A stretch of DNA of 64,000 bases from Herbidospora daliensis. GTDB lineage: Bacteria > Actinomycetota > Actinomycetes > Streptosporangiales > Streptosporangiaceae. Under the pieces are notes generated by a model. The model was not told where the DNA came from, ran no database searches, and saw nothing but the letters and a program-made list of their open reading frames with translations. Positions 7,494-59,693 of this stretch are shown one piece after another (positions within the stretch are counted from its first letter, which is position 1; the number at the start of each line of letters is the position of its first letter). The DNA lies in the NCBI RefSeq assembly GCF_001570585.1, contig NZ_BBXF01000003.1, positions 903,353 through 967,352 of the forward strand, written 5' to 3'. Both the position numbers and the translations under genes were made by a program.

Positions 7494-7512
7494 CCCGGTG
7501 GCGCGGGCCAGT

Positions 7513-12005: not shown

Positions 12006-12170
12006 GGGGCCTGGTTCGGCGGGGCCTGGTTCGGCGGGGCCTGGTTCGGCGGGGCCTGGTTCGGCGGGGCCTGGTTCGGCGGGGCCTGGTTCGGCGGGGC
12101 CTGGTTCGGCGGGGCCTGGTTCGGCGGGGCCTGGTTCGGCGGGGCCTGGTTCGGCGGGGCCTGGTTCGGC
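12006..12170. repeat. 15-bp minisatellite, 11 perfect copies
   Basis: The unit GGGGCCTGGTTCGGC is repeated head to tail eleven times with no mismatch over 165 bases. There are no spacers, so it is not a CRISPR. Perfect identity points to recent slippage or active homogenisation. Confidence 0.97.
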
Positions 12171-12205
12171 GCGAGTCGATGTTGCCTGGGACTGCTACCC
12201 GGTTG

Positions 12206-12349
12206 TCGGCTCGGTCGGCTCGGTCGGCTCGGTCGGCTCGGTCGGCTCGGTCGGCTCGGTCGGCCCGGTCGGCCCGGTCGGCCCGGTCGGCCCGGTCGGC
12301 CCGGTCGGCCCGGTCGGTTCACTCGGCTCGGTCGATTCGGTCGGTCCGG
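12206..12349. repeat. 9-bp tandem repeat, 16 units in two variants
   Basis: Six copies of TCGGCTCGG are followed by six of TCGGCCCGG, then four diverged units (TCGGTTCAC, TCGGCTCGG, TCGATTCGG, TCGGTCCGG). The block structure shows one C/T variant that spread by duplication. It starts 36 bases after the 15-bp array ends. Confidence 0.95.
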
Positions 12350-12435
12350 GCCGTTGTATGTGGTGACCTCTCAGCAGTTGGACCTATCCGGCTCGCGATC
12401 TCGTAGCTTGGCCCGATCGGTGAGGACGGGCATCT

Positions 12436-36765: not shown

Positions 36766-36798
36766 ATCTCACTAAGGTTGGGCGAACCTTAGTGAGAT
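36766..36798. promoter_or_regulatory. 14-bp-arm palindrome, candidate autoregulatory operator
   Basis: ATCTCACTAAGGTT-GGGCG-AACCTTAGTGAGAT is perfect over 28 paired bases. It lies just upstream of the TetR-like/TPR gene and 124 bases before the divergent dioxygenase gene. AT content exceeds that of usual local terminators and no transcript ends here, which favours an operator. Confidence 0.65.
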
Positions 36799-39726: not shown

Positions 39727-40611
39727 ATGCGAGCGAGCGCGAAGGCACGGCACCGACGCGTCGACGTCGACGGGATCGAGGTCTTCTACCGGGAGGCCGG
39801 CAGCCCGGACCTGCCGTGCGTGCTGCTGCTGCACGGCTTCCCCAGTTCGTCCCACTGCTTCCGGCGGGTGCTCGCGCCGCTGGCCGGCGTCAGCCGGGTC
39901 GTCGCCCCCGACCTGCCCGGCTTCGGCTTCTCCGCCGCGCCGAAGGTGGACGAGTACGCGTACACCTTCGCCAACCTGGCCGACACCATGGAGCGGTTCC
40001 TGGAGCGGATCGGCGTCGAGGAGTTCTTCGTCTACCTGCACGACTTCGGCGCGCCGGTCGGCTACCACCTCGCGCTGCGGCGTCCCGAGCGGGTCCTGGG
40101 GCTGATCGTGCAGAACGGCAACGCCCACGACGACGGGCTGGGCGAGCAGTGGGACGAGGCCCGCGCCTACTGGGCCGACCCGTCGGAGGAGAACCGGGCG
40201 AAGCTGACCGAGTGGCTGAACTTCGAGGGCACCCGGGGGCAGTACCTCGACGGGCTGCCCGAGCGGCTGCGCGTGCTGCACCCGCCGGAGACCTGGCACC
40301 TCGACTGGGAGCGCATGTCGCGGCCGGGCGACCTCGACGTCCAGTTCCAGCTGTTCCGCGACTACGGCGCGCACGTCGCCCGCTTCGGCGAGCTGAGCGA
40401 CTACCACCGCGCCCACCAGCCGCCGTGCCTGCTGCTGTGGGGCCGCCACGACGCGTTCTTCGACCTGGCCGAGATCATGGGCTACGCCCGCGACCTCGAC
40501 CGGATCGAGATGCACGTCTACGACGCCGGCCACTACCTGCTGGAGACCCACGCCGACGAGAGCGCGGACGCCATCGCCGCGTTCGTCACCGACGTCTCAC
40601 AGGCCCAGTAG
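39727..40611 (+). CDS. Alpha/beta hydrolase, epoxide hydrolase/haloalkane dehalogenase type
   Basis: 294 residues. The oxyanion-hole motif is L-L-H-G-F-P; the nucleophile elbow is L-H-D-F-G-A-P-V-G, with Asp as nucleophile, as in haloalkane dehalogenases and epoxide hydrolases rather than Ser esterases. The acid is in the L-L-W-G-R-H-D region and the His in Y-D-A-G-H-Y-L-L. It should open an epoxide or displace halide through an aspartyl ester. It converges on CysNC with a 15-base overlap. Confidence 0.85.
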   Translation: MRASAKARHRRVDVDGIEVFYREAGSPDLPCVLLLHGFPSSSHCFRRVLAPLAGVSRVVAPDLPGFGFSAAPKVDEYAYTFANLADTMERFLERIGVEEFFVYLHDFGAPVGYHLALRRPERVLGLIVQNGNAHDDGLGEQWDEARAYWADPSEENRAKLTEWLNFEGTRGQYLDGLPERLRVLHPPETWHLDWERMSRPGDLDVQFQLFRDYGAHVARFGELSDYHRAHQPPCLLLWGRHDAFFDLAEIMGYARDLDRIEMHVYDAGHYLLETHADESADAIAAFVTDVSQAQ

Positions 40612-42414
40612 CGCGCACACCGCGTCGGCCGCCTCGTCGGCCGGGCTGGTCCCGTCGACCACCAGGTCGGGGTGGTCGGGCGGCTCGTAGGGCTGGCCGT
40701 GGCCGGTCAGGTTCGGCAGCCGCCCCGCCTTCGCCTCGGCGTAGAGGCCCCTCGGGTCGCGGCGGGCGCACTCCTCGGGCGGGGTGTCGACCCACACCTC
40801 GGTGAAGTCGCCGTCGGCGAACAGGGCGCGGGCCGCCGCCCGGTCGGTGCGGTACGGCGACACCAGCGCCACCACGACGACGAGGCCGGCGTCCACCAGG
40901 ATGCGGGCCACCTCGGCGACGCGGCGCACGTTCTCGGCGCGGCCCTGCGGGGTGAACCCGAGGTCCCTGTTCAGCCCGCCGCGCACGTTCTCGCCGTCGA
41001 GCACGTAGGTGTGCAGGCCCCTGCCGTGCAGCCGCCGCTCCAGCGTGTTGGCGAGCGTCGACTTGCCGGCGCCCGGCAGGCCGGTCAGCCACACCACGCG
41101 GGCGTGCTGGCCCTTGAGCCGCTGCCGGGCCTCGCGGTCGACGGTGTAGGCGTGCGGGGCGACGTTGCGGCCGCGCCGCAGGGCGTGCCGGACCATGCCG
41201 GCGGCGACGGTCTCCTTGGTGACGCGGTCGACGAGCAGCAGGCTGCCGGTGTGCCGCGACTTCCGGTAGGCGTCGAGACGGACGGGCGAGTCGGTGGTCA
41301 GCTCGACGGTGCCGATGTCGTTGAGGTCGAGGGTGCGCGCGGCCAGCTTCTCGCCGCTCACCACGTCGAGCCGGTCGCGCACGGCCGTGACCACGGCGGG
41401 CACGGTACGCCCGCCGACACGCAGCAGGTAGGAGCGGCCGTTGCGCAGGGGTTCCCCGGCGGTCCAGATCAGCGTGACGGAGAAGGCGGTCGCCGGGGAG
41501 GGGCCGTCGCCGGGCGGGGCCAGCAGGTCGCCGCGGCGCACGTCGACGTCGTCGGCCAGCGTCACCGTCACGGCGGTGCCGGGCGCGGCCCGGTCGAGGC
41601 CCGCCCCGCCGGGCGCGAGCAGCCGCTCGATCCTGGACGTCGTGCCACCGGCCCTCACCGGGTCGCCCGGACTGACCGGGCCGCCGAACACGGTGCCCGC
41701 GAAGCCGCGGAAGCCGTCGGCGCGGATGACGTACTGGACCGGCAGCCGGTAGCCCTCGCCGGGAGCGGGGCCCGGTTCCCAGGCGGTCAGCGCCTCCAGC
41801 AGGGTCGGGCCGTCGTACCAGGGGAGGTTCTCGGAGGGCTCGGCGACGTTGTCGCCGCCGAGGGCGCTGGCCGGGATGACGTCGGCCCGCATGCCGAAGC
41901 CGTCGGCCGCCGACCGCACCTCGGCCGCCAGGGTCTCGAACACCGGCCGGTCCCAGCCGGCGGCGTCGAGCTTGTTGACCGCCGCGATGACCGACGGCAC
42001 CCCCATCAGCGCGCAGATCGCCAGGTGGCGGCGGGTCTGCTCGCGCACGCCCTTGGTGGCGTCCACGAGCAGCACCGCGACGTCGGCCGTGGACGCCGCG
42101 ACCGCCATGTTGCGGGTGTACTGCTCGTGGCCGGGCGCGTCGGCGACGATCACCCGGCGGCCCGAGGGCAGGTCCATGAACAGGTGGGCGACGTCGATGG
42201 TGATGCCCTGCTCGTGCTCGGCCTCCAGCCCGTCGGTCAGCAGGGAGTAGTCGACCTCCCCGGCCGCCACGGTGGAGCCGCCGCGCCGGGTCTCGCGGGC
42301 GTAGTCGAGCCGGTCGTCGTCGGCGCCGCCGGTGGCGGCCAGCAGCCTGCCGATGAGGGTGGACTTGCCGTCGTCGACCGAGCCGCACGCCACGACTCTC
42401 AGTACCGCGACCAT
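40597..42414 (-). CDS. cysNC: Bifunctional sulfate adenylyltransferase GTPase subunit / APS kinase
   Basis: 605 residues. The N-terminal ~430 are CysN: G-S-V-D-D-G-K-S-T, D-A-P-G-H-E and N-K-L-D GTPase motifs plus EF-Tu-like beta barrels. The C-terminal ~170 are APS kinase CysC: G-L-P-G-A-G-K-S-T and D-G-E-N-V-R-G-G-L-N. With CysD it makes APS and then PAPS, the sulfuryl donor. The start overlaps the CysD stop by one base (TGATG). A sulfotransferase 1.5 kb away is the likely consumer. Confidence 0.95.
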   Translation of the reverse strand: MVAVLRVVACGSVDDGKSTLIGRLLAATGGADDDRLDYARETRRGGSTVAAGEVDYSLLTDGLEAEHEQGITIDVAHLFMDLPSGRRVIVADAPGHEQYTRNMAVAASTADVAVLLVDATKGVREQTRRHLAICALMGVPSVIAAVNKLDAAGWDRPVFETLAAEVRSAADGFGMRADVIPASALGGDNVAEPSENLPWYDGPTLLEALTAWEPGPAPGEGYRLPVQYVIRADGFRGFAGTVFGGPVSPGDPVRAGGTTSRIERLLAPGGAGLDRAAPGTAVTVTLADDVDVRRGDLLAPPGDGPSPATAFSVTLIWTAGEPLRNGRSYLLRVGGRTVPAVVTAVRDRLDVVSGEKLAARTLDLNDIGTVELTTDSPVRLDAYRKSRHTGSLLLVDRVTKETVAAGMVRHALRRGRNVAPHAYTVDREARQRLKGQHARVVWLTGLPGAGKSTLANTLERRLHGRGLHTYVLDGENVRGGLNRDLGFTPQGRAENVRRVAEVARILVDAGLVVVVALVSPYRTDRAAARALFADGDFTEVWVDTPPEECARRDPRGLYAEAKAGRLPNLTGHGQPYEPPDHPDLVVDGTSPADEAADAVCALLGL

Positions 42415-43307
42415 CAGAAATACCCCTCCGACTTCTTGCTCTCCATGGACGTGCCGCCCTCGCCGTCGATGAGCCGGCCGGCCCGTTCCGACCGGCGGTC
42501 GCGCCGCATCTCGTCGATGACCTCGTCGAGGTTCTCCGCCTTGGACTCCACGGCCGCCGTCAGCGGGTAGCAGCCGAGGGTGCGGAACCTGACCCGGCGC
42601 TCCTGCGGCCGCTCGCCGGGCTCCAGGGGGTAGCGGTCGTCGTCCACCATGATCAGTGCGCCGTCCCGCTCGACGACCGGGCGCGGCGCGGCGAAGTAGA
42701 GCGGCACGACGGGGATGTCCTCGCGCCGGACGTAGCGCCAGACGTCGAGCTCGGTCCAGTTCGACAGCGGGAACACCCGCATCGTCTGGCCGTCGGCGAG
42801 TTCGGTGTTGGCCTGCCACCAGAACTCCGGGCGCTGCGAGCGCGGCTCCCAGCGGTGGCCGGGCTCGCGCAGCGAGAAGACGCGCTCCTTGGCCCGCGAC
42901 CGCTCCTCGTCGCGCCGCGCGCCGCCGATCGCCGCCTCGAACCCGCCATCGTCGAGCGCCCGGCGCAGGGTGAGGGTCTTCTTGATCCGGGTGTACTCGT
43001 GGGCGCCGTGGGTGAACGGGGTGGCCTCGTCGGGGCTGGTGTGCACCCGCAGGTCGAGCCCCAGCCGCTCGGCCGTGGCGTCGCGGAAGGCGATCATCTC
43101 GCGGAACTTCCAGCCGGTGTCGACGTGGATCACGGGGAACGGCATCCGGCCGGGCGCGAACGCCTTCAGCGCCAGGTGCAGCAGCACCGAGGAGTCCTTG
43201 CCGATCGAATAGAGCAGCACCGGCCGCCGGAACGCCCCGGCGACCTCGCGCAGGATGTGCACCGCCTCGGCTTCGAGCATGTCGAGGACGTCGTCTTCTC
43301 CGGCCAT
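42414..43307 (-). CDS. cysD: Sulfate adenylyltransferase small subunit
   Basis: 297 residues from the ATG preceded by GGAGG. It is a PP-loop ATP pyrophosphatase domain (Y-S-I-G-K-D-S-S) with the typical [11 protein letters not shown] and C-terminal E-R-A-G-R-L-I-D motifs. It catalyses ATP + sulfate to APS, driven by CysN GTPase activity. A divergent 70-bp region with the GGAGTAACC-N18-GGTTA motif separates it from the acetyltransferase gene. No reductive assimilation genes (cysH, cysI) are adjacent, pointing to sulfation rather than cysteine supply. Confidence 0.95.
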
Positions 43308-43330
43308 GTCCGGACCTCCGGCTTCGGGGT

Positions 43331-43362
43331 GGAGTAACCTGTAAATGGCTTCTGATCGGTTA
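43331..43362. promoter_or_regulatory. Bipartite regulatory motif, copy 1 (cysD / acetyltransferase)
   Basis: GGAGTAACC-N18-GGTTA with the spacer beginning TGTAAAT. The same arrangement recurs at the NRPS promoter. Here it lies 24 bases from the cysD start and 16 from the divergent acetyltransferase start, overlapping the region where transcription of both must begin. Confidence 0.6.
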
Positions 43363-43377
43363 TCTGAAGGAGGCACG

Positions 43378-43944
43378 ATGCGGTCGCTGACCGTGAAAGA
43401 GCTGTCCAAGGAGACCTGGGGCGACTTCGAGTCGGTGCTCGGCGCCAACGGAGGCGCCCGCGGCTGCTGGTGCATGCACTGGCGGTTGTCCATCAAGGAG
43501 TGGACGGAGGGCAAGGGCGAGGGCAACAGGAAGGCGATGAAGCGCCTCGCCGGGCGCGAACCCGTGCCCGGCCTCGTCGTCTACGACGGCGACGCCCCGG
43601 TCGCGTGGTGCTCGCTCGGCCCGCGGTCGGCCTTCCCCCGGCTGGAGCGTTCGCCGCTGCTGAAGGGCCTCGGCGACGAGGAGGTCTGCGCCATCGCGTG
43701 CGTGTACGTCGAGAAGGGACATCGTGGCTCCGGGTTGTTGCCGGGCATCCTGGAAGCGGTCTGCGACTGGGCCTCGGCGGCGGGCTACGCCACCGCCGAG
43801 GGCTACCCGGTCGAACCCCGCGACGGGAGGCGCGCCGGGGCCGACACCGCGATGACGGGCATCGCCGGCGCCTTCCTCGACGCGGGGTTCTCCGAGGTGG
43901 CCCGCCCGCGCGCCGACCGGCCGATCATGCGGCGGAAGGTCTAG
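43378..43944 (+). CDS. GNAT-family N-acetyltransferase
   Basis: 188 residues from the ATG after GAAGGAGG. The acetyl-CoA loop is [11 protein letters not shown]. An N-terminal C-W-C-M-H-W segment is typical of a GNAT subfamily with a conserved Cys/Trp start. The likely role is N-acylation of a small amine or self-resistance; the sequence does not say which. It shares the motif-bearing promoter with cysD and converges on the sulfotransferase with a 20-base overlap. Confidence 0.85.
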
Positions 43945-44641
43945 CCCGCGCGAGCGCCTCGTAGTAGGGCCGGTGGTGGTCGGCGACGCGGCGCAGGTGC
44001 GCGCTGGTCGACGGCGTCTCGCGCGCGGCGGGCGCCGTCGCCGCCAGCCCGCTGCTCCCGGCCACCTCGGTGTGCCACCGGGTGGTGCGCCGCCAGCCCG
44101 TCTGCTCGCCCGGATCCCAGCGCATCGCCTCGGGCCGGAACTCCAGCCCGACGTGGGCGCAGTAGGCGCGGACGGTCTCCTCCGGCCGCGCCACCAGGTC
44201 GTCGCCGTCGATCACCAGCGGGGTCTCGCCGGTGGCCGACCGGACGGCCTCGAATATGGCGTGCAGGTACTCGAAGCCGTACTCGTCGAGCGTCGCGTCG
44301 GGGTTCACCGCGTAGTGGGAGGCGACCGCGCCCTCGGGCTCCCGGATCATGAACGTGTTGATCACGTCGGTGAACAGGCGCTCGTCGTCGAACAGCGGCG
44401 TGTACGTGTAGTCGGAGGTGTCCTTGGCGAAGACCCGCCGGCCGGCGGCCCCGAGGCCGAGCATCACGTCGAGCAGCTCGACCGGCGAGGTCACGGTCTG
44501 GCCCGCGAGGGTGAAGCCGCCGTCGTCCTGGAGGGACGAGAACGGCTCGTGGGCCACCTCCAGGTCGCCGCGCTCCATCATGACGCGCAGGAACGCGGTC
44601 GACCGCGACCGGGGCACCGCCCACAACAGGATCGGCTTCAC
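43925..44641 (-). CDS. Sulfotransferase-family protein
   Basis: 238 residues from a GTG that overlaps the reductase stop (GTGA). The PAPS 5'-phosphosulfate loop is visible as P-R-S-R-S-T-A-F-L-R (residues about 10-19) and the 3'-phosphate region as F-M-I-R-E-P-E-G-A-V-A-S-H. It would transfer a sulfuryl group from PAPS to a hydroxyl or amine. It is the third gene of the operon argininosuccinate-synthase-like / aldo-keto reductase / sulfotransferase, beside the PAPS-forming cysD-cysNC pair. Confidence 0.88.
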   Translation of the reverse strand: MKPILLWAVPRSRSTAFLRVMMERGDLEVAHEPFSSLQDDGGFTLAGQTVTSPVELLDVMLGLGAAGRRVFAKDTSDYTYTPLFDDERLFTDVINTFMIREPEGAVASHYAVNPDATLDEYGFEYLHAIFEAVRSATGETPLVIDGDDLVARPEETVRAYCAHVGLEFRPEAMRWDPGEQTGWRRTTRWHTEVAGSSGLAATAPAARETPSTSAHLRRVADHHRPYYEALARARPSAA

Positions 44642-45621
44642 TGCGACCACTCCGTCGGCCGCCGGTCCCAGCGGTGCTCGCGCAGCTCCGCCATCAGCGC
44701 CTCGCTCAGCGGTTCGGCGTCGCTCGCGGCGAGGTTGGCCCGCACGTGGGCGGGCTTGCGCATGCCCGGGATGACCGTGGAGACGTCGGGGTTCTGGAGG
44801 ATGAACCGCAGCGCGAGCTCGGGCAGGGTCATGCCCTCGGGCACGATGCGGGCCAGCCGCTCGGCCCGGTCGACGCTCGGCCCGAGGTTCTCCGGGACGA
44901 AGTAGGTGTTGCGCCAGTCGCCCTCGGGCCAGCGGCTGTCACGGGTCAGCGTGCCGGTGAGGGTGCCCTCGTCGAAGGGCACCCGGGCGACCACCGCGAC
45001 GTCGAGCTCGCGGCAGGCCGGGAACAGCTCGTCTTCCGGGGCCTGGTCGAAGACGTTGTAGATGACCTGGACGGCGTCGATCAGCCCCGTCCGCAGGGTC
45101 TCCAGCACGTTCCAGGGCTCCCAGCGGTTGACGCTGATCCCCACCCCCTCGATCAGGCCGCGTTCGCGCATCTCGGCGACGGTGTCCTGCCACGAGGGGT
45201 CGTGCGCCCAGGCGTCCTCCCAGACGTGGAACTGGAACAGGCCGACCGATTCCGTGCCGAGTCCGTCGAGGCTCCGGTGCAGGTACTCCCACAGGTGGTC
45301 GGGCGGGTAGACGTCGGCCAGCTTGGAGTCGCGGGTGGACGGCCACGCGAGGTCTTTCGGCGGCGGCTTGGTCGCCACGTGGAGACGGCGCTCCGGATGG
45401 CGTTTCAGCAGGCGGCCGAGCATACGTTCGCTCTCGCCGCGCCCGTAGATCCAGGCGGTGTCGAAGTAGTCGCAGCCGAGCCCGACGGCCTCGTCGAGGG
45501 CGGCGTCGCCGGTCGCGTCGTCGGCGCCGGTCCAGCCGCCCTCGCCGCCGGCGATGCCCCACATGCCGTAGCCGACGTCGCCGACCGTCCAGCCGAGCCG
45601 GCCGAAGCGGCGCTCACGCAT
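44638..45621 (-). CDS. Aldo/keto reductase
   Basis: 327 residues with a TIM barrel. Catalytic residues: F-D-T-A-W-I-Y-G (Asp and Tyr), T-K-P-P-P (Lys) and Q-F-H (His). The C-terminal V-I-P-G-M-R-K motif binds NADP(H). It probably reduces an aldehyde or ketone of the pathway; the aldehyde released by the A-T-R synthetase is an attractive but unproven substrate. Its start overlaps the upstream gene by 8 bases. Confidence 0.93.
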   Translation of the reverse strand: MRERRFGRLGWTVGDVGYGMWGIAGGEGGWTGADDATGDAALDEAVGLGCDYFDTAWIYGRGESERMLGRLLKRHPERRLHVATKPPPKDLAWPSTRDSKLADVYPPDHLWEYLHRSLDGLGTESVGLFQFHVWEDAWAHDPSWQDTVAEMRERGLIEGVGISVNRWEPWNVLETLRTGLIDAVQVIYNVFDQAPEDELFPACRELDVAVVARVPFDEGTLTGTLTRDSRWPEGDWRNTYFVPENLGPSVDRAERLARIVPEGMTLPELALRFILQNPDVSTVIPGMRKPAHVRANLAASDAEPLSEALMAELREHRWDRRPTEWSQ

Positions 45622-46780
45622 GGCCGTCTCCTTCCCGGCTCCAGCGGTTGCCGCCCGAGCCGAACCGGGTCTGCTGCACGACGTGACTGGCCGCCTTCAT
45701 CCCCTCGGGGCGGACCACGCCCCGGTGGACCGACAGCGTCACGCTGCCGCTGAGGTCGCCGACGAGCCGGTCGACCGCCTCGCGCGCCGCCTGGGCGGCG
45801 GGGTCGAGCCAGCGGGCCTCGTACATCGCGGCGCCCAGGACGGCGGCCAGCCGGTCGTAGAGCTCACGGCCGGCCGCGTCGAGACCGGCCTGCAGGACGC
45901 GGGTCCAGGCGCGTTCGAGCAGCTCCAGGCCGGGCGCCTCGTAGACGCCCCGGCAGACCGTGCCGACGATGCGCCGTTCGACGACGTCGCGCAGCCAGAC
46001 GCCGTGGCGGGCGCCGATCGTGTTGGCCGCAGCCATCCACGCGACCGGGTCGGGGCCGCTGCCGTCGACGCCGGCCACCCGCCCGTCGCGGAACTCGACG
46101 GTGACGGTCTGGGGTTCGGTCGGGGCCTCGTGGGGCCAGGCGCTCCAGCGCGGCCGCAGCCGGGTGACCGGCGTCGCGAGGTCTTCGAGCTCGGCCGACT
46201 CGTGGGAGGCGCCGGCGAGGCAGGCGTCGGTGGACCGGTCGGCGGCGCTGCCCCGGTCGAGGCGCAGCCCCTGCCGGGCGACCGCCGCCGCCATGGCCGC
46301 CCGGTCGGGGAACCGGCCGAGGGCGCGCGGGTCGGTCCACGGTTCGACCCGGCTCATGCCGGGGGCGACCAGGCCGCCGTAGCGCGCGAACCGGCGCTGG
46401 TCGTTGCCGCCGCCGACGCAGCCGTGGACGAAGGTCTCGCAGCCGTCGGCCCGCATCCGCGGCAGCAGTTCGGCCGCCAGCACCAAGCGGGACGCGCCGG
46501 TGGTGTTCCAGTAGCCGCCGTCGTGGCGGGCGCGGTACCGCAGCAGATCGGACGCCACGGCGGCCATCGGCGCGCGCAGGTCGGTGACGACGACGTCGGC
46601 GCCGGAATCGCGCAGGGATGACGCGAGCGCGTCGATCTCCGCACGGTCGGACTGGCCGAGGTCGGCGAGGTAGTGCCGGGCCGGGACGGACGTCTCACGG
46701 AGCCATACTCCGACGGCCAGAGAGGACAGCCCTCCTGATTGGAATAACCCCGTCTTGGGGGCGCCATCGGCTGTTTCCAC
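45614..46780 (-). CDS. Argininosuccinate synthase-like protein
   Basis: 388 residues from a GTG 3-6 bases after AAGGAGGAGGTC; an in-frame ATG at 46834 is less well placed. It has the argininosuccinate-synthase fold with the PP-loop as F-Q-S-G-G-L-S-S-L-A, and the catalytic-domain G-C-V-G-G-G-N-D-Q-R-R-F motif (canonical G-C-T-G-K-G-N-D-Q-V-R-F). Substitutions at usually invariant sites suggest an altered substrate. Family chemistry: ATP-dependent adenylation of a ureido carbonyl and attack by an aspartate amine. In this cluster it probably builds a guanidine- or amidine-like bond. It is the first gene of a three-gene operon. Confidence 0.85.
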   Translation of the reverse strand: METADGAPKTGLFQSGGLSSLAVGVWLRETSVPARHYLADLGQSDRAEIDALASSLRDSGADVVVTDLRAPMAAVASDLLRYRARHDGGYWNTTGASRLVLAAELLPRMRADGCETFVHGCVGGGNDQRRFARYGGLVAPGMSRVEPWTDPRALGRFPDRAAMAAAVARQGLRLDRGSAADRSTDACLAGASHESAELEDLATPVTRLRPRWSAWPHEAPTEPQTVTVEFRDGRVAGVDGSGPDPVAWMAAANTIGARHGVWLRDVVERRIVGTVCRGVYEAPGLELLERAWTRVLQAGLDAAGRELYDRLAAVLGAAMYEARWLDPAAQAAREAVDRLVGDLSGSVTLSVHRGVVRPEGMKAASHVVQQTRFGSGGNRWSREGDGHA

Positions 46781-47232
46781 GACCTCCTCCTTGCGCTGGT
46801 GGATTCCTGACAATGTGTCAAGCCTTGCCCACAATGCCCACAGAAATCAAGTCCGTACGCGATGATTCGAAAGTCGACCGCTGTTGCCCCTGTGACCCGA
46901 GAGGTTCGTCGATTCGATTCGACGCTGGTCATCGTGTGTTTCGGAGAAAATGTCGCCGATTCTGATTAGCCCTCACGGGCTCGGGTATCGGGGCGCTCGG
47001 ACCCCGAGCCTGCCGGGGGTGGATCGAATTCACGTCTTCGCAGGTGAACGCGGCACTCACCACTGCCTGGGCACCGTCCGGGCTTGCGTCCCACGGCCCG
47101 CTGACACAGTATGGAGTAACCCGTAAGTCGCTGAATGAGGGTTACTCAACCTCTTATTGGAGGGAGCGTCCGGTCACGCCTGAAATCATTCGACGCCCAT
47201 CTGAATAGTGACTGCCTGACCATGGAAGCACG
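46781..47232. promoter_or_regulatory. 452-bp divergent promoter region of the NRPS cluster
   Basis: No gene is seen. The region is less GC-rich than its neighbours and contains the motif annotated below, which forms a 9-bp inverted repeat. A GGAAG ribosome-binding site precedes the NRPS ATG by four bases. Confidence 0.7.
47113..47147. promoter_or_regulatory. Bipartite regulatory motif, copy 2 (NRPS operon)
   Basis: GGAGTAACC-N18-GGTTA again, spacer CGTAAGTCGCT. In this copy the halves extend to a perfect inverted repeat GAGTAACCC / GGGTTACTC (16-base spacer), which suggests a dimeric operator. It lies 86-120 bases upstream of the first NRPS gene. Confidence 0.65.
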
Positions 47233-50200
47233 ATGCCACGCCATCAGCAGACGCACCTTGACGAAAACGCTCACTTATTCCTCGGACCGCAGCACGCATT
47301 TCCGTCGCGGAGCACCGTCCTCGACCTTTTCCGCGAACAGGTGGAGAACACGCCCGACCGTCCCGCGCTCCGATATCGCGACCTCACGACCACCTACGCC
47401 GAGCTCGACGCGGCGGCGAACGCGACCGCCCGCCGGCTGATCGGCGGCGGCGTGGAGAGGCACCGGCTGATCCCCGTTCTGGTGGCCGACGGACGCGAGT
47501 TCCCGGCCGCGCTCCTGGCGGTGCTGAAGACCGGCGCGGCGTTCGTGCCGCTCGATCCGGCCTGGCCCGCCGACCGGCTCGACGCGATCATGACCGAGCT
47601 GTCGCCGCCCGCCGTCGTGGTCTCCCCGGCCACCGCGGAGATCCTCGCCTCACCCGTCCCCGCGGTGGTCGCCGACTGCGACGCCCCCGGCGACGACCCG
47701 CCGCCCGACGAGCTCCGGCCCGCGCCCGGCGACCTGATCTACGGGTTCTACACCTCCGGCTCGACGGGCCGGCCCAAGTGCGCGCTCAACCGCCACCGCG
47801 GCCTGGTCAACCGCCTGACCACGATGTCGCGCCGGTTCGGCGACGGCCACGTGACGCTGCAGAACAGCCGTTCCACCTTCGACTCCTCGATGTGGCAGGT
47901 GCTCTGGCCGCTGACCTCCGGCGGGCAGGTCGTGCTGCCCGACCGCGACGGCATCCTCGACCTGGAGCGGACCGCCACGACCATCGGCCGCTACGGCGTC
48001 ACGATGACCGACTTCGTGCCGTCGGTGCTGGCCGCGTTCGTCGCCCTGCTGGAGGAGCGCGCCGACCTGCGCGCCGCGACGTCGAGCCTGCGCCGCATGC
48101 TGATCGGCGGCGAACCGGCCGGTCCCGGCGTGGTGCGCCGGCTGCGCGCGCTGCTGCCGGGCCTGGCGGTCACCAACACCTTCGGGCCGACCGAGTGCTC
48201 GATCGGGTCGGTGTTCCACGACGTCACCGACGCCGACGCCGACCGGATCCCCATCGGCCTGCCCATCGACAACACCGCCGCGATCGTGCTCGACGGCGAC
48301 CTGAACCCCGTGCCGGCCGGCACACCCGGCGAGCTCTTCCTCGGCGGCGAGTGCGTCGGCGCGGGCTACCTCGGCGACCCCGCGCGGACCGCCCGCACGT
48401 TCGTGCCCAACCCGTTCCCGCAGGTCCCGGGCGACACCCTCTACCGGACCGGCGACCTGGTGCGGGCCGGCGACGACGGGCTGCTGCACTTCGCCGGCCG
48501 GCTCGACGAGCAGGTCAAGCTCGGCGGCGTGCGGGTGGAGCTCGGTGACGTGGCCGCCGCCCTGGCCGGTCATCCGCTCGTCGGCGACGCGACGGCGGTG
48601 GTGCTCGGCGAGGCCCCCGACGCCACGCTGGTCAGCTGCGTCACCCCGCGCTCGCCCGCCGAGACCCCCTCGGCGGAGCAGCTGCGCGGCTACGCGGCCG
48701 GGAAGCTGCCCGCCGAGCAGGTCCCGCACCGGATCGTGGTGCTCGACGAGCTGCCGCTCAACCACAACGGCAAGGCCGACCGCAAGGCGCTGGCCGCCCT
48801 GATCGTCGCCGACGGCGCGGAGGAGCACGCCGAACCCCCGGCCGATCCCATGGAGGAGCTGGTCTGCGCGGCCTGGTGCGAGGTGCTCGACCGCGACCGC
48901 GTCTCGGTGGTGGTGCCCTTCGCCGACTACGGCGGCACCTCGCTGCTGGCCTACCGCGTCGTCACCGCCGTCGGCGAACGGCTGGGGCGGCCGGTCCGCC
49001 CCCGCGACCTGCTCGCCGAGCCGACCGTGCGGGCCCAGGCCGCGCGGCTGGCGGGCGGCGTCGACGACGACAGCGCCGAACTGGCCTACGTCCGGCAGGA
49101 CCTGGCCTGGCGGCCGCCCCGGACGCTGCTGCTGACCGGCGCGACCGGCTTCATCGGGGCGCACGTCCTGGCCGAGCTGCTGACCCGCACCAACGCCGAG
49201 GTGATCTGCCTGGTCCGGTGCGCCGACCCGGCCGACGGCGCCCGCCGGCTGACCGAGGCCCTCGACCGCTACGGCCTCGCCTCCGCCTGGCGGCAGCTGC
49301 CCGCGGCCGTCGCCGCCGGACGCGTCGAGGTGGTGCCCGGCGACCTGGCCGGGGAACTCCTCGGGTTGTCGCAGCGCCGCTTCGACGCCCTGGCCTCGAC
49401 CGTGTCGGGCGTCGTCAACGCCGCGGGCGCGGTGAACTTCCTGTCGGGCTACCTCGACCACCGGCCGGCCAACGTGCTGGGCGTACAGGAGCTCATCAAG
49501 CTCGCCGCCGGCGGCGGCGCGCGCCTGCACCTGCTGTCGACGCTGAGCATCTTCGGCCCGGCCGACCGGACCGGCCCGCCCATCACCGAAGACCGGCTCC
49601 CGGTCACCCACGAGGTCGCCGCCGACGGCTACAACCGGTCGAAGTTCGTCGCCGAGAGCCTGGTCGCCGACGCGCACCGCCAGGGCGTGAGCTCGGTGGT
49701 CTACCGCCTCGGCGAGGTCTGGCCGCACCGCGCCACCGGCGCGGCCAACCCCGACTCGCTGGCCCACAACCTGCTGTACGCCTGCGCCCGCACCCGCTGC
49801 GTGTTCCCGACGGGCGCGGCGACCGACGTCACCCCGGTCGACGTGGTCGCCGGCTTCCTGGCCCGCGCCGCGACCGGCGACCTCGACGTGCCCGACGGCG
49901 CGATGCACGTGTTGTGGCCGACGGGCCTGCGCTTCGCCGACGCCTTCGACGCGCTGGCCGCGCGGTGCGGCTTCGACCGGGTCGGCTACGCCGAGTTCCG
50001 CGACCGCCTGGACGCCGTCGCCGAGCCCGATGAGCGGCTCACCGGGCTCCGCCTCCTGCTGCCGCCCCCCGACGACGGCCGCGACGCCGCGCCGGCCGAG
50101 TTCGACGAGATGTTCACCGACGGATCCCGCCACTTCGACATCCGGCGGTTCGACCGCCACGGGGCCGCGCTCGCCCGCCCGGAGGCCGACGGCCTCACCG

Positions 50201-50271
50201 CGGTCGGCCGCTACCTCAGCCAGTTGTCCGACACCTCCGCCTTCGTCCCTCAAGAAAGGCAGGCGCAATGA
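47233..50271 (+). CDS. NRPS, adenylation-thiolation-reductase (A-T-R)
   Basis: 1012 residues with no condensation domain. The adenylation domain has [11 protein letters not shown] (core A3, with Cys replacing the usual Gly) and T-F-G-P-T-E. The carrier protein has Y-G-G-T-S-L-L (Ser for phosphopantetheine). The C-terminal thioester reductase has G-A-T-G-F-I-G and Y-N-R-S-K. By family it activates an amino acid and releases it as aldehyde or alcohol with NADPH, as Lys2 and carboxylic acid reductases do. My reading of the specificity residues is D-S-W-D-L-G-T-I-G-K; the acidic residue at position 278 hints at a basic substrate. It leads the + strand operon and overlaps mbtH. Confidence 0.93.
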
Positions 50272-50444
50272 ACGAGCAGTACGCCGTGGTGATCAACCAC
50301 GAGGAGCAGTACTCGATATGGCCCGCCGGCCGCGAGATCCCGAACGGCTGGCGCGCGGCCGGGTTCGAAGGCGGCAAGGACGAGTGCCTGGCGCACGTCG
50401 CGAGCGTGTGGACGGATCTGCGCCCGCTGAGCGTCCGACGGTGA
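50268..50444 (+). CDS. MbtH-family NRPS accessory protein
   Basis: 58 residues with the family core: [19 protein letters not shown] and W-T-D-L-R-P. It binds and activates adenylation domains. The ATG overlaps the A-T-R stop (ATGA) and the gene ends 17 bases before the second NRPS, so both flanking synthetases are candidate partners. Confidence 0.97.
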
Positions 50445-50461
50445 AGGAGGAGAAGGAGACC

Positions 50462-53400
50462 ATGTCCACGCCCGAAGAGCGAAACGTCGGCGACATCAAG
50501 CGCGCTCTGCTGGAGCGAAAGGTCCGCCAGCGGGTGGCCGAGAAGGCCGAGCGGGAGAAGATCGTCCCGGTGCCGCGCACCGGCAAGATGGCCATCGCCG
50601 AGCAGCAGCGCTTCCTGTGGTTCCTGCACCAGATGGTGGCCGGCGCGCCCGTCTACAACGTCCCGTTCGCGATGCGCCTGCGCGGCCCGCTCGACGCCGG
50701 CGCGTTGTCGGCGGCGCTGCGCGGCATCGTGACCCGCCACGAGAGCCTGCGCACCCGGTTCGGCGACGAGCACGGCGTGCCGTTCCAGACCGTCGACCCG
50801 CCGCCCGAGACGTGGGACCTGCCGGTCACCGACGGCACCGAGGCCGAGATCCAGGACTGGATCGACGGCCAGGTGCGCGAGGAGTTCGACCTGCGCAACC
50901 ACCCGCCCTACCGGTTCGGCCTGCTGCGCCTGGGCGACGACGACCACGTGCTGTCGATCGTCTGGCACCACATCGTCATCGACGGCTGGTCCTCACGGCA
51001 GTTCGCCGAGGAGCTGACCGCCCGCTACGCCGACCCCGACGGATCGCGGTTCCCCGACCTGGACCTGCACCCCGCCGACTTCGCGGCCTGGCAGCGGCTC
51101 TGGCTGCTCAGCGAGGAGCCGGCCAGGCAGATCGAGTCGTGGCGCACCGCCCTGGAGGGCATGGAGCCGCTGGAGTGGCGCGGCGACCGCGAGCGCCCCT
51201 CGGCGCCCACCGGGGCCGGCCGCATCTACGAGGGCCGCCTGCCCGACGACCTCGCCCGCGGCGTCCGCGACCTGGCCCAGGCCGAGAACGTCTCCCTGCT
51301 GGCCCTGACGATGACCGCCTACCAGATCGTGATCAACCGCTACACCGGCCAGGACGACATCGCGCTCGGCTCGGTCTTCTCCGGGCGCACCCGCTCGGAG
51401 ACCGAACCCATGATGGGCTTCTTCGCCAACACGGTGGCCGTCCGCGGCGACCTGTCGGGCGACCCGGTCTTCCGCGACCTCGTCCACGTCACCAACGACA
51501 CCGTGCTCGACGCCATGGCCCGCCAGGACATGCCGTTCGGCCGGATGATCGAGGAGCTGAGCCCCGAGCGGGTGCCGGGCCGTAACCCGCTGGTCGCGCA
51601 CCTGTTCACGCTGCTGCCCGAGCCGATGATCGCGCGCTGGGAGTTCCGGGGCCTGGACGTCGAGATGCTCACCCCGCAGCCCGAGACCACCCGGTTCGAC
51701 CTCACCTTCCAGATCAACGACCTGCCCGACGGCGGGCTGGGCGTCTGGATCGAGTACTCGTCCGAGTTGTTCGACCACGAGCGGGTCGAGGCCCTCGTCG
51801 AGCACTTCACCACGGTCCTGGCCGACGCGCTGTCGCGGCCGGCCGCCCGGATCGGCGAGCTCGACCTCATGTCCAACGAGGAGTACCTGCGGGTGCTCAC
51901 CGCGTGGAACCCCGAGCCCCGCGAGCGCGACGGGCGGCTGCTGCACGAGCTGTTCGCGGCCCGCGCCGCCGAGGCGCCCGACGCGGTCGCCATGCGGTTC
52001 GGCGGCGACGACCTGACGTACCGGCAGCTCGACGAACGGTCGAACCGCCTGGCCCACGCCCTCGTCGACGAGTTCAAGGTGACGCCCGGGACCGTGGCCG
52101 GGGTGCTGCTGGAGCGCGGCTTCGACCTGCCCGCCGCCGAGCTCGGCGTGCTCAAGGCGGGGGGCGCGTGGTTGCCGCTCGACCCGCAGTACCCGCCCGA
52201 CCGGCTCGCCTACCAGCTCGGCGACGCCGGGGTCGCGGTGGTCGTGACCACCTCCGACCTGGCCGACAAGGTGCCCGCCGAGGTGCCCAGGATCCTGCTG
52301 GACGCCGACGCGCTCGACGGCCGGGCCGCCGCCCCGCCCTCGGTGACCGTGTCGCCGGAGGACACCGCGTACGTCATCTACACCTCGGGCTCGACCGGCA
52401 CCCCGAAGGGCGTCATGGTGCCCCACCGCGCGGTGGTCAACTTCTGCACCGCGTTCCAGCGCATGTTCCAGGTCACGCCCGACGACCGGATCCTGCAGTT
52501 CTCCAACCCGGCCTTCGACGTGAGCGTCTCGGACGTCTTCTCGACCCTCACCGCGGGCGGCACCATCGTCGGCGCGCCGCGCGCCGAGCTGCTCGACCCC
52601 GAGTCGCTGCAAGAGCTGCTCGCCCGCGAGCGGGTGACGATGGTGGACATCCCGCCCGCCGTGCTCGGGCTGCTCGACCCGTCGGCCCTCGACGACCTGC
52701 GGGTCTGCTTCATCGGCATGGAGCCCTTCGGCCCCGAGCTGGTCAACAGGTGGAGCCGGCCGGGCCGCGAGTTCCACAACGGCTACGGCCCCACCGAGGT
52801 CACGGTCACCTGCGTCGACTACCTGTGCCCGCCCGAGCCCATCGAGGGCGCGCCGCCGATCGGCCGGGCGATGGACAACCAGCGCGCCTACGTCCTGGAC
52901 AGGGGCCTGCGGCCGGTCCCCGTCGGGGTGCCCGGCGAGCTGCACATGGCCGGCGCCGGGCTGGCCGTGGGCTACCTCGGCCGCCCCGACCAGACCGCCG
53001 AGAAGTTCCGGCCCGACCCCTTCGCCGCCACGCCCGGCGAGCGCATGTACGCCACCGGCGACCTGGCCCGCTGGAACGCCGACGGCCAGCTGGAGTTCCT
53101 CGGCCGGGCCGACCGCCAGGTGAAGCTGCGCGGCCTGCGCGTGGAGCTCGGCGAGATCGAGCACGCCATCGAGGCCGCCGACGGCGTGCGCCAGTGCGTC
53201 GTGACCGTGCGCGACCAGGGCACGCCCTCGGCGTGGCTGGCCGCCTACGTGGTCGGCGACGTCGAGCCCGACGCCCTGCGCGAGCACCTGTCGGGGCGGC
53301 TGCCCATGCACATGGTGCCGACCGACTACGTCCTGCTCGACCAGCTCCCGCTGACCTCCGCAGGGAAGGTCGACCACCGGAAGCTGCCCGACCCGCGCCC

Positions 53401-53755
53401 CGGCGGCGGCGCGGCCAAGGTCGAGCTGACCACCGACACCGAGCGCCGCATCGCCGAGATCTGGACCGGCCTGCTCGGGCTGGAGCCCGGCGGCGTCGGC
53501 GCGCAGGACAACTTCTTCGTCCTGGGCGGCAACTCGCTCCAGGTGACCCAGATGATCTCCCGGGTGCGCGACGCCTTCCAGGTGACGCTCGACCCCCGGC
53601 GGCTGTTCAGCTACCCGCTGCTCAGCCAGTTCTCCGCGCAGGTCGACGACGCGCAGCGCGCGCTGCTCGGCGACGACGAGGTGGCGAAGCTGGAGGCGCA
53701 GGTCGCCGACCTGCCCGAGGAGGAGCTCGACCGCCTGCTGAAAGAGCAGAGCTGA
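50462..53755 (+). CDS. NRPS, condensation-adenylation-thiolation (C-A-T)
   Basis: 1097 residues from the ATG opening M-S-T-P-E-E-R. A short N-terminal helical docking-like segment (about 1-40) is followed by a condensation domain (W-H-H-I-V-I-D-G catalytic HHxxxDG), an adenylation domain (Y-T-S-G-S-T-G-T-P-K-G, G-Y-G-P-T-E) and a carrier protein (L-G-G-N-S-L). My reading of the specificity residues is D-V-S-D-F-G-G-V-T-K, which matches no code I know; G-M-E-P-F replaces the common G-G-E-x-L loop. There is no TE domain; the separate thioesterase follows directly (ATG overlapping the stop). Confidence 0.95.
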   Translation: MSTPEERNVGDIKRALLERKVRQRVAEKAEREKIVPVPRTGKMAIAEQQRFLWFLHQMVAGAPVYNVPFAMRLRGPLDAGALSAALRGIVTRHESLRTRFGDEHGVPFQTVDPPPETWDLPVTDGTEAEIQDWIDGQVREEFDLRNHPPYRFGLLRLGDDDHVLSIVWHHIVIDGWSSRQFAEELTARYADPDGSRFPDLDLHPADFAAWQRLWLLSEEPARQIESWRTALEGMEPLEWRGDRERPSAPTGAGRIYEGRLPDDLARGVRDLAQAENVSLLALTMTAYQIVINRYTGQDDIALGSVFSGRTRSETEPMMGFFANTVAVRGDLSGDPVFRDLVHVTNDTVLDAMARQDMPFGRMIEELSPERVPGRNPLVAHLFTLLPEPMIARWEFRGLDVEMLTPQPETTRFDLTFQINDLPDGGLGVWIEYSSELFDHERVEALVEHFTTVLADALSRPAARIGELDLMSNEEYLRVLTAWNPEPRERDGRLLHELFAARAAEAPDAVAMRFGGDDLTYRQLDERSNRLAHALVDEFKVTPGTVAGVLLERGFDLPAAELGVLKAGGAWLPLDPQYPPDRLAYQLGDAGVAVVVTTSDLADKVPAEVPRILLDADALDGRAAAPPSVTVSPEDTAYVIYTSGSTGTPKGVMVPHRAVVNFCTAFQRMFQVTPDDRILQFSNPAFDVSVSDVFSTLTAGGTIVGAPRAELLDPESLQELLARERVTMVDIPPAVLGLLDPSALDDLRVCFIGMEPFGPELVNRWSRPGREFHNGYGPTEVTVTCVDYLCPPEPIEGAPPIGRAMDNQRAYVLDRGLRPVPVGVPGELHMAGAGLAVGYLGRPDQTAEKFRPDPFAATPGERMYATGDLARWNADGQLEFLGRADRQVKLRGLRVELGEIEHAIEAADGVRQCVVTVRDQGTPSAWLAAYVVGDVEPDALREHLSGRLPMHMVPTDYVLLDQLPLTSAGKVDHRKLPDPRPGGGAAKVELTTDTERRIAEIWTGLLGLEPGGVGAQDNFFVLGGNSLQVTQMISRVRDAFQVTLDPRRLFSYPLLSQFSAQVDDAQRALLGDDEVAKLEAQVADLPEEELDRLLKEQS

Positions 53756-54537
53756 TGGACGCCACCCTGGAGGAGAAACGCCGGGCGCTGCTGCGCCGGG
53801 AGCTGCGGCGCAGGCGGGAGGAGGCCCTCCGGCTGCCGCGTCCCGAACGGCGGCCGGAGTCCCCGCTGATCCCCCTCGGAGGAGCCGGGGACGGGCCGCC
53901 GCTGTTCCTGGTGCACGCCGCCGGCGGCTCGGTCGCGCCCTACGTCGCGCTGGCCGCGATCCTGGGCGAGGACCGTCCCGTCTATGCCCTGGAGGACCCG
54001 GGCCTGCACGAGGGCGTCACCGGCGACCGCGACCTCGCCGAGCTGGCCGGGATCTATCTCGACCTGGTCCGCGAGGCCCGGCCGTACGGGCCGCTCTACC
54101 TGGGCGGCTGGTCGGTCGGCGGCGCGGTGGCGCTGGAGATGGCCCGCCTCGACGGCGGCGCGGCGCTGACGTTCCTGCTCGACACCGGCGTCGCCGACGA
54201 GCCGTCGCGGCCCGGCGACGACGAGCTGGGCATGTGGTTCGACGCCGACCTCGCCGCGATGGACGCCGAACTCGACGACGCCGAACGGGCCCGGCGGTTC
54301 CCGGTGTTCGCCGCGAACGTGCGCGGCCTGCTGGCCTTCCGCCCCACGCGGGTGGAGGGCCGGGTGGTGCTGATCTGCGCGGAGAACTGCGAACCGGCCA
54401 AGCTCGACCGCTGGCGGCCCTACGCCGACGAGGTCCTGACCGTGGCGGGCGACCACTACACCATGCTCCAGGCGGCGCGCGCCGAGTCGCTCGCCGCCGT
54501 GATGCGCGAGAGGTTCAGCGAGGTGAGTGTCCGATGA
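53755..54537 (+). CDS. Stand-alone thioesterase of the NRPS cluster
   Basis: 260 residues. After a charged N-terminal helix comes a thioesterase alpha/beta-hydrolase domain with V-H-A-A-G-G (oxyanion), G-W-S-V-G-G (nucleophile Ser) and G-D-H-Y-T (His). The sequence resembles type I TE domains cut off from an NRPS rather than GrsT-like editing enzymes, so it may release the product. Start and stop overlap both neighbours. Confidence 0.92.
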   Translation: MDATLEEKRRALLRRELRRRREEALRLPRPERRPESPLIPLGGAGDGPPLFLVHAAGGSVAPYVALAAILGEDRPVYALEDPGLHEGVTGDRDLAELAGIYLDLVREARPYGPLYLGGWSVGGAVALEMARLDGGAALTFLLDTGVADEPSRPGDDELGMWFDADLAAMDAELDDAERARRFPVFAANVRGLLAFRPTRVEGRVVLICAENCEPAKLDRWRPYADEVLTVAGDHYTMLQAARAESLAAVMRERFSEVSVR

Positions 54538-57719: not shown

Positions 57720-59135
57720 ATGAACCTGGCGACGCACGAGCCCGGCACGTCCCGATCGCGGCGGTTCTGGCCGCTGGCCGTCATCTGCGGCACCCAGTTC
57801 CTGATCGCGGTCGACTACTCGATCATCAACGTGGCCGCCCCGAGCATCCGCGCGGGCATGGACTTCGGCCCGGGCGGCGGCGTCGCCTGGGTGTTGTCGG
57901 CCTACCCGCTGACCTTCTGCGGCTTCCTCCTCCTCGGCGGCCGGGTCGCCGACCTCTACGGCCGCAGACGGGTGTTCGTCTGGGGCCTGGCCGCTTTCGG
58001 CCTCGCCTCGCTCCTGGCCGGCCTGGCCTGGTCGCCGGCCGCGCTGATCGCGGGCCGCGCCCTCCAGGGGGTGGCGGCGGCGTTCGTCGCCCCGGCGGGC
58101 CTGGGCCTGCTCCAGGCGACCGTGCCCGAAGGGCCGGAACGCGAACGGGCGCTGGGCGTGTACGGGGCGGCGCTGTCGGCCGGGTTCGTCTCCGGCATGG
58201 TGCTCGGCGGCGTGCTCACCGAGTACGCCGGATGGCGGTCGGTCTTCCTGGTGAACGTGCCGATCGTGGTGCTCTTCGGCGTGCTGGCCATGATGCACCT
58301 CGGCGAGAGCCGCGACACCGGCGCCTCCCGCCACCTCGACCTCGCCGGGGTCGTGCTGGCCGCCACGGGCATGGTCGCCTTCGTGTTCGCGCTGACCGAG
58401 GGGGAGGAGTACGGCTGGACGTCGGCCCCGATCCTGCTGGCGGCGGCGGTCGCGGTCCCGGCGGCGGCACTTTTCGTCTGGGTGGAGTCGCGCAAGCGGG
58501 AGGCGCTGCTGCCGATCTCCGTCTTCCGCACCGCCGCGATCGGCCCGGCCAACCTGATCACCGTGCTGCTGATCTGCTCGTACGGCGGCATGCTCTTCAT
58601 CCTCACGCTCTACCTGCAGACCCACCTCGGCCTGGGCGCGCTGGCGACCGGCCTGGCCTTCGCCGTCTCCGGCGCGGTCGCGGTCGTCACCGGCATCTAC
58701 GCAGGGAAGCTCGTCGAGCGGTTCGGGCTCTACCGGGTGCTGCTCGGCGGCATCGTCGTCGAGACGGCCGGCATCCTCGTCATGGTGGGCCTGCCGGACG
58801 ACCACGGGCTCACGCTCGTCCTGGTGGGCACCTCGGTGAACGCCTTCGGCCACATCCTGGCCCTGATCACGACGAGCATCGCCGGCACGAACGGCGCGGA
58901 GGAGGGCCGCCGGGCCACCGCCGGGGCGCTGATCAACGTCTCGCAGCAGCTCGGGCTGGCCGTCGGGGTCGGCGTGGTGACGTCGGTGGCGGCCCACTTC
59001 GCCACCGGGGCGGGCGGCGAACTCGCGGGCTGGCGCTGGGCCCTGTGGTGCTCGGTCGCCTTCGCGGCGGTGGCGGCCGTGGTGACCGTCGTGCTGCGCG
59101 GACGGCTCAAGGGGGAACCAGATATAGTGGGTTAA
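57720..59135 (+). CDS. MFS drug exporter, DHA2 (14-helix) type
   Basis: 471 residues with about 14 membrane helices. Motif A is G-R-V-A-D-L-Y-G-R-R and the antiporter motif C lies around helix 5 (G-F-V-S-G-M-V-L-G-G). It is the probable exporter and self-resistance determinant for the cluster product. It starts 16 bases after the kinase and abuts the CGNR regulator. Confidence 0.92.
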   Translation: MNLATHEPGTSRSRRFWPLAVICGTQFLIAVDYSIINVAAPSIRAGMDFGPGGGVAWVLSAYPLTFCGFLLLGGRVADLYGRRRVFVWGLAAFGLASLLAGLAWSPAALIAGRALQGVAAAFVAPAGLGLLQATVPEGPERERALGVYGAALSAGFVSGMVLGGVLTEYAGWRSVFLVNVPIVVLFGVLAMMHLGESRDTGASRHLDLAGVVLAATGMVAFVFALTEGEEYGWTSAPILLAAAVAVPAAALFVWVESRKREALLPISVFRTAAIGPANLITVLLICSYGGMLFILTLYLQTHLGLGALATGLAFAVSGAVAVVTGIYAGKLVERFGLYRVLLGGIVVETAGILVMVGLPDDHGLTLVLVGTSVNAFGHILALITTSIAGTNGAEEGRRATAGALINVSQQLGLAVGVGVVTSVAAHFATGAGGELAGWRWALWCSVAFAAVAAVVTVVLRGRLKGEPDIVG

Positions 59136-59693
59136 ATGGTTACTCTGACGTCTCGGGTCAGGCCGCCATGGGAGGACGCCCACTTCGTCGGCGGCCACCT
59201 GGTCCTCGACCTCACGAACACCGTCTTCGACCGGATGCTCCCGGCCGGCGAGGACGTCGAACTGCTGCGATCCCCCTCCGACGTGCTGAGCTGGTGCCTC
59301 TCGGCCGGGTTGTTCGACGAGACGCCCGGCCCGGTCGCGGGCGATCTCGTCGCCGAGACCCGGGCCGTGCGCGAGCAGGCGTGGGCCGTGTTCGACACGA
59401 TCGCCCGGGGCGGGACCGCACCCGGCGCCCCCTTCGGCGCGCTCCTGGAGCGGGCCGGGAAGGGCCTGCGGGCGTCCGCCGGCTGGTCGGCCCCCGGGGC
59501 GATCCCGGCCGCGCTCGCGCTCGCGGCGGTCGAGGCGGTGTTCACCCTCCCGCCGGCCCGGGTCAGGGCGTGCGGCCGGTGCGGCTGGTTGTTCCTCGAC
59601 TCCTCGCGCGGCGGGCGCCGCCGCTGGTGCAGCATGAGCATCTGCGGCAACCGCGAGAAGGCCCGCCGCCACCGGCAGGGCCTCACCGGTTGA
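59136..59693 (+). CDS. CGNR zinc finger regulator
   Basis: 185 residues beginning directly after the exporter stop. The N-terminal domain is the ABATE type (G-G-H-L-V-L-D-L-T-N-T). The C-terminal zinc finger has C-G-R-C-G-W-L-F-L-D and C-S-M-S-I-C-G-N-R. CGNR proteins are putative stress or antibiotic-linked transcription factors. As the last gene of the operon it is a candidate pathway regulator. Its end overlaps a converging hydrolase gene by 11 bases. Confidence 0.9.
   Translation: MVTLTSRVRPPWEDAHFVGGHLVLDLTNTVFDRMLPAGEDVELLRSPSDVLSWCLSAGLFDETPGPVAGDLVAETRAVREQAWAVFDTIARGGTAPGAPFGALLERAGKGLRASAGWSAPGAIPAALALAAVEAVFTLPPARVRACGRCGWLFLDSSRGGRRRWCSMSICGNREKARRHRQGLTG

Follow-up and report, generated by a model that had tools for sequence, protein, structure and literature searches.

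A spaced palindrome as proposed operator of an ABATE-CGNR protein in a nonribosomal peptide cluster with its own sulfate activation genes

The inverted repeat GAGTAACC-N18-GGTTACTC is likely to be the operator at which the ABATE-CGNR protein encoded at 59136-59693 blocks three promoters of its gene cluster until a signal relieves the block. The DNA analysed, hereafter the window, is a stretch of 64,000 nucleotides whose nearest named organisms belong to Herbidospora. According to our model, a dimer of the CGNR protein would bind two half-sites lying 26 bp apart (centre to centre), blocking transcription from the promoter of the CGNR gene itself (leaderless, its -10 box flanked by the operator arms), from that of the nonribosomal peptide synthetase (NRPS) operon in the gap between the NRPS and argininosuccinate-synthase-like (ASS-like) genes (operator just downstream of the NRPS -10 box), and from a third promoter in the gap between the GNAT and CysD genes. 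The ABATE domain would sense the signal, perhaps an intermediate or the product of the pathway, which would relieve repression of peptide assembly and of a dedicated PAPS supply jointly. Binding, dimerisation on DNA, repression and the ligand are all proposed from sequence. The spaced palindrome itself is real and, as judged by comparison of related clusters, functional. It is very probably read by the cluster's own CGNR protein, and repression is the likelier mode of action than activation.

The cluster and its three operator candidates

The CGNR gene is surrounded by two NRPS genes, a thioesterase gene, acyl-CoA-dehydrogenase genes, an amino-acid kinase gene and an MFS transporter gene, while the other side of the cluster carries the ASS-like, aldo-keto reductase, sulfotransferase, GNAT, CysD and CysNC genes. 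No paper on the cluster product was found in the literature search. The CGNR protein scores above the cut-offs both for the ABATE domain (PF07336; 52.3 bits, cut-off 24.4) and for the CGNR zinc finger (PF11706; 59.4 bits, cut-off 24), and its residues C146, C149, C165 and C170 are invariant across a 10-row alignment. The features to which we refer are the following.

40597-42402, minus strand: CysN-CysC fusion, GTPase and APS kinase domains (domain matches; 42402 marks where the GTPase domain begins, and the gene start may differ)
42414-43307, minus strand: CysD-like gene, PAPS_reduct domain (domain match)
43332-43365, no strand: candidate operator 1, GAGTAACC-N18-GGTTATCT (pattern search, and relatives upstream of GNAT)
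43378-43944, plus strand: GNAT acetyltransferase (domain match)
43925-44650, minus strand: sulfotransferase, the expected PAPS user (domain match)
44638-45621, minus strand: aldo-keto reductase (domain match)
45614-46834, minus strand: ASS-like gene (start may be near 46720)
47084-47112, plus strand: predicted NRPS promoter, TTGCGT (47084-47089), 17 bp, CAGTAT (47107-47112)
47114-47147, no strand: candidate operator 2, the perfect palindrome, in the NRPS/ASS-like divergent gap
47233-50271, plus strand: NRPS, A-T-reductase (domain match)
50030-53755, plus strand: NRPS, C-A-T (first position is that of the open frame; a later gene start is possible)
53755-54537, plus strand: thioesterase
57720-59135, plus strand: MFS transporter, adjoining the CGNR gene on its upstream side (domain match)
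59112-59145, no strand: candidate operator 3, GGGGAACC-N18-GGTTACTC, overlapping the MFS 3' end and the initial CGNR codons
59123-59128, plus strand: predicted -10 box TATAGT, within operator 3 and 7 nt ahead of the CGNR start codon
59136-59693, plus strand: ABATE-CGNR regulator gene, 185 aa (zf-CGNR 2.9e-16, ABATE 1.2e-13)

The genome contains two further CysD-like genes with 48-49% identity to the cluster CysD, and the cluster copy thus appears to serve the cluster specifically.

A first-pass annotation of this DNA had described two short blocks with the same 18-base spacing in the GNAT/CysD and NRPS/ASS-like divergent gaps. Pattern search bore this out, as GGAGTAACC-N18-GGTTA is present exactly at both 43331-43362 and 47113-47144, and the second copy is indeed a perfect inverted repeat. 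The right arm of copy 1, GGTTATCT, has three mismatches to the palindrome, and operator 1 fills about half of the 70-bp GNAT/CysD gap (43308-43377). A third copy, absent from the first-pass annotation, was found at 59111-59146; its left arm keeps six of eight bases and its right arm all eight, and it spans the start codon of the CGNR gene. With up to two mismatches allowed, the window contains five strand-matches at these three places, compared with 0.06 expected from shuffles. The strong form is also rare genome-wide: in the 8.52-Mb genome, GAGTAACC-N18-GGTTA occurs with at most one mismatch at four places, namely the three sites of the window and a single further one (G000:C2:1225071). At two mismatches the genome total equals background (23 strand-matches versus 22 for the reversed-pattern control), and hence only strong sites are meaningful.

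A dioxygenase (TauD) gene, upstream of which a weaker copy had been noted, was considered as a further target and rejected. The half-site AACCCGTAA is present at 36820, but a partner arm was not found; by hand estimate, a 9-mer of this kind should turn up by chance about 0.1 times in the window. The block around it is conserved in relatives, with the half-site kept in one locus (L046) and GACCCGTAA in its place in another (L048).

Related clusters and promoter geometry

When species genomes were scanned using the ASS-like protein as query, 21 related loci emerged. A close CGNR orthologue (67-92% identity) was found in 16 of the 20 genomes searched (all but that of L066), once split over two contigs; the other four yielded distant CGNR matches or none. 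At corresponding places of the related clusters GAGTAACC-N17/18-GGTTACTC recurs, arm spacing among relatives being either 17 or 18. Since the species compared are related and their upstream DNA is homologous, the counts that follow are not independent.

The NRPS/ASS-like gap was scanned in all loci except L055, L065 and L066. Of the 16 clusters that possess a CGNR orthologue, 11 have the site there (the cluster studied here plus ten relatives; 0 to 4 mismatches of 16); of the three lacking an orthologue, none has it (6-7 mismatches). One of the clusters counted as positive, L058, has 4 mismatches and a shuffle value of just 0.035, although its position and flanking promoter agree with those of the others. 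Five CGNR-carrying clusters, from three Kibdelosporangium, one Lentzea and one record labelled Rhodococcus, lack the N17/18 site in this gap, with a shuffle-like 5-7 mismatches of 16. Upstream of GNAT the site is present in 18 of 19 loci, comprising five from Herbidospora (3 mismatches each), the ten loci L028-L037 (0-3) and three of Kibdelosporangium type (0, 1 and 3). All 15 loci in which cysD is visible opposite are among them. The sole exception is Lentzea (L076) which, like L035-L037, has no CysD gene adjoining GNAT within the stretch examined. In Nonomuraea, GNAT and CysD adjoin the CGNR gene rather than lying between CysNC and the sulfotransferase gene, and the relocated gap retains the site. 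This is the strongest support for joint control of PAPS supply. The idea put forward in the first-pass annotation, a shared regulatory site linking sulfate activation to the NRPS operon, is supported by conservation at both gaps.

The start of the CGNR gene carries a related form of the site, AACC-N3-TANNNT-N7-ATGGT(T/C)AC, in 21 of 21 orthologous loci (script check; genes fetched more than once were counted once, the C-terminal fragment L043/L085 was discounted and L123 was included). In the window this pattern occurs once. The distance of 7 nt from the -10-like box to the ATG points to a leaderless CGNR transcript. One arm of operator 3 lies upstream of the -10 box and outside the CGNR gene. 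The other begins with the G of the ATG, reaches one base into codon 4 and partly encodes a conserved Met-Val-Thr; its GTT codon is unusual in this gene, which has 95% G+C at third positions. At the NRPS operon, the predicted promoter lies directly upstream of operator 2. In all 11 site-carrying NRPS gaps the pattern TTGC-N19/20-CANNAT (17-18 bp between hexamers) directly precedes the site, with the CANNAT box 3-4 nt before the left-arm core. The NRPS and CGNR promoters are predictions from conservation alone, and both arrangements suit a repressor.

These findings bear on two other readings of the site. Two short blocks with a fixed 18-bp spacing might be the -35 and -10 elements recognized by an ECF sigma factor, as the first-pass annotation had considered. 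We regard this as highly improbable: the blocks are the arms of a palindrome, their spacing is 17 or 18 among relatives, and separate promoter-like boxes lie outside or between the arms, as with those preceding the site in every site-carrying NRPS gap. The CGNR protein, the other reader candidate named there, gained support from the site at its own start and from similar operators at other CGNR genes. Alternatively, the same protein might act at the same sites as a transcription activator. Cluster-situated regulators of actinomycetes are often activators, and the left arm of site 3 falls between -35 and -10, a position likewise occupied by MerR-type activators. However, the NRPS site starts right after the -10 box and the CGNR site straddles both -10 box and start codon; both positions are typical of repressors, and the predicted NRPS promoter has a normal -35/-10 spacing of 17-18 bp. 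Activation therefore seems unlikely to us, and repression by the CGNR protein is the reading followed below.

Inverted repeats at other CGNR genes

Among 338 genomes of the family, the perfect palindrome AGTAACC-N17/18-GGTTACT occurs at 15 places in 13 genomes, and its reversed control at three places in two genomes. Twelve of the 15 lie in clusters of this type that also have a CGNR orthologue, and a thirteenth maps 1.5 kb away from the CGNR member of a GNAT-CGNR gene pair (G144). For the remaining two (G015, G066), CGNR genes are absent to a distance of about 9.5 kb; that of G015 is located between an aldehyde-dehydrogenase (Aldedh) gene and a TetR gene. A further genome (G025) has GNAT and a CGNR gene (37-39% identity) together with an NRPS gene of the A-methyltransferase-T-reductase type, and contains a one-mismatch site about 440 bp upstream of GNAT.

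The G015 and G066 palindromes, the former adjacent to a TetR gene and neither close to a CGNR gene, are what might be expected if a regulator encoded elsewhere read the sites and the CGNR gene were merely a target. This is improbable in our view, because palindromes with 9- or 18-bp spacing are enriched at CGNR paralogues, spacing tracks the phylogeny of the CGNR proteins, and a Pfam scan of 30 open reading frames of the window, some of them probably non-genes, revealed no second regulator family. The cluster's own CGNR protein remains the preferred reader.

The enrichment was determined on 142 CGNR loci, which were reduced to 91 by dropping proteins with at least 75% identity; five of these were cluster orthologues and one was lost to a region-length filter, leaving 85. 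The spacings 9 and 18 and the ACC core were fixed after inspection of the first paralogue loci, with 19 of the 85 rows predating the rule and 66 fetched afterwards. Within the 85 non-redundant paralogues, the palindromic form xxxACC-N9-GGTxxx is present in 19 and the N18 form in 13, versus shuffled means of 1.18 and 1.5, respectively, and a maximum of 4 over 40 shuffles. Other spacings from 5 to 25 yielded 0 to 5 each (shuffle averages 1.15-1.75). The later-fetched 66 alone gave 16 (N9) and 9 (N18) against a shuffle mean of 1.33 each (maximum 4), and background tiles from the same loci gave 5 and 8 of 473. Of the 19 N9 loci, 13 have an ATG or GTG that follows the end of an arm at a distance of 0-3 nt. 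None of the 85 paralogues has N9 together with N17/18, and 48 have no match at 9, 17 or 18, including 18 rows of one 20-row clade. A protein tree, built by a quick method and with L185, L093, L127 and L089 entering as short fragments, needs a single N9/N18 switch among the 32 labelled paralogues, compared with 6-13 in 500 label shuffles.

Two extensions of the rule were tried and dropped. A family-wide N17 spacing is not claimed, as it occurs in 5 of 85 paralogues versus 17 of 473 background tiles, and at this spacing a GCG core also exceeds shuffles (12 of 66; mean 5.5, maximum 9). Nor does the length of the zinc knuckle set the spacing by a simple code, since all 19 N9 rows are CX4C and the 23 N17/18 rows are mixed.

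As a sequence enrichment the wider spacing rule is well supported. That much of the ABATE-CGNR family consists of autorepressors acting on ACC-core inverted repeats, with a half-site distance (9 or 18 bp) fixed by lineage, is an extrapolation which we hold to be slightly better than even. Another CGNR gene of the same genome (G000:C5:669197) is associated with GTAACC-N9-GGTTAC twice, whereas the cluster has GTAACC-N18-GGTTAC; the same half-site at different spacing may keep CGNR paralogues within a single genome separate. ABATE genes are frequent in this actinobacterial class (match in 20 of 40 genomes at E 1e-10), and the similar palindromes before many other CGNR genes offer a testable binding rule for this common and little-studied family, which the predicted site, regulon and spacing rule make directly amenable to experiment. 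Removal of the CGNR gene is a suggested way to wake the cluster. More generally, a peptide pathway with a sulfotransferase may bring its own co-regulated PAPS supply.

Comparison with known systems

Among the matches listed in the literature searched, with most subscription journals outside its scope, none named an operator for the ABATE-CGNR family, and the structure paper on PDB entry 3h0n was the only one with this family as its subject. The listed matches for GTAACC plus GGTTAC included none on bacterial regulators by title. The 3h0n protein, Jann_2411, has an ABATE domain and a CGNR zinc finger and belongs to the same family as the cluster CGNR protein (profile match 3e-06; single-sequence match 0.032). 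In passages of the 2009 paper it is described as a dimer for which DNA binding and ligand sensing were proposed; these passages give no DNA site or target gene, and the word 'promoter' occurs zero times in the main text (PMC2954205). Unlike that account, as far as those passages go, the proposal made here for the cluster CGNR protein specifies a DNA site together with a regulon and a promoter geometry.

Two further classes of regulators invite comparison. Cluster-situated autorepressors of the TetR or MarR type have their operator over their own promoter and over target promoters. The proposed CGNR system would work alike, with the differences that the regulator is a zinc-finger ABATE-CGNR protein, that the centres of its half-sites are 26 bp apart and that its own transcript is probably leaderless. 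Cluster activators of the StrR type recognize long spaced inverted repeats common to the promoters of one cluster, to which the CGNR sites are similar. StrR-type proteins have a ParB/KorB-like DNA-binding domain, for which the 30 open reading frames scanned in the window gave no Pfam match. The CGNR protein belongs to another protein family, and its predicted site, unlike that of StrR-type activators, follows the -10 box or spans it.

Spacing of the proposed operator arms in related clusters

In Kibdelosporangium-type clusters, GTAACC-N11-GGTTAC replaces the N18 form (palindrome arms 18 bp apart) in the divergent region between the NRPS operon and the argininosuccinate-synthase-like gene.

L050, about 9620-9654: N11 palindrome in this region; the equivalent gaps of loci L051 and L060 likewise carry one

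At the N11 palindrome of L052 an arm reads GTAATC. Locus L050 comes from a 12.4 Mb genome whose record is titled Rhodococcus rhodnii NRRL B-16535; by eye it resembles the Kibdelosporangium loci here, and its label is possibly wrong.

N18 sites were also encountered outside the cluster type.

L116 (G025:C26), 6207-12755: separate NRPS gene (A-methyltransferase-T-reductase), adjoining the acetyltransferase (GNAT) gene and a CGNR regulator gene (37-39% identical)
L116, 7792: N18 site with one mismatch
L112, 9375-9408 (G015:C12:49375): perfect GAGTAACC-N18-GGTTACTC, flanked by aldehyde-dehydrogenase and TetR genes

The 19 kb stretch examined around the L112 palindrome contained no CGNR gene.

Inverted repeat upstream of the dioxygenase gene

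Window 36766-36798: ATCTCACTAAGGTT-GGGCG-AACCTTAGTGAGAT, an inverted repeat with perfectly matching 14-bp arms that precedes the TauD-like gene

Comparison of the loci showed that L046 and L048 keep this repeat, altered at no more than one position. It may represent either a site different from the proposed cluster operator or a terminator.

CGNR paralogues and their neighbours

The H. daliensis genome contains four more ABATE genes, and their upstream palindromes differ.

L129: GTAACC-N9, two copies
L155: GTAACC-N19 (by eye)
L178: GACACC-N17 (by eye)
L170: no clear palindrome upstream

Upstream of the paralogues in one CGNR clade (L138, L139, L140-L142, L144, L145, L147, L148, L157, L158, L161-L163, L166, L168, L169, L171, L172 and L174), an xxxACC-Nk-GGTxxx palindrome with a spacing of 9, 17 or 18 was absent from 18 of the 20 rows. 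In the stretches examined of L123, L125-L128 and L039-L041, GNAT adjoins the CGNR gene apart from the other genes of the cluster, which suggests that the two form a functional pair.
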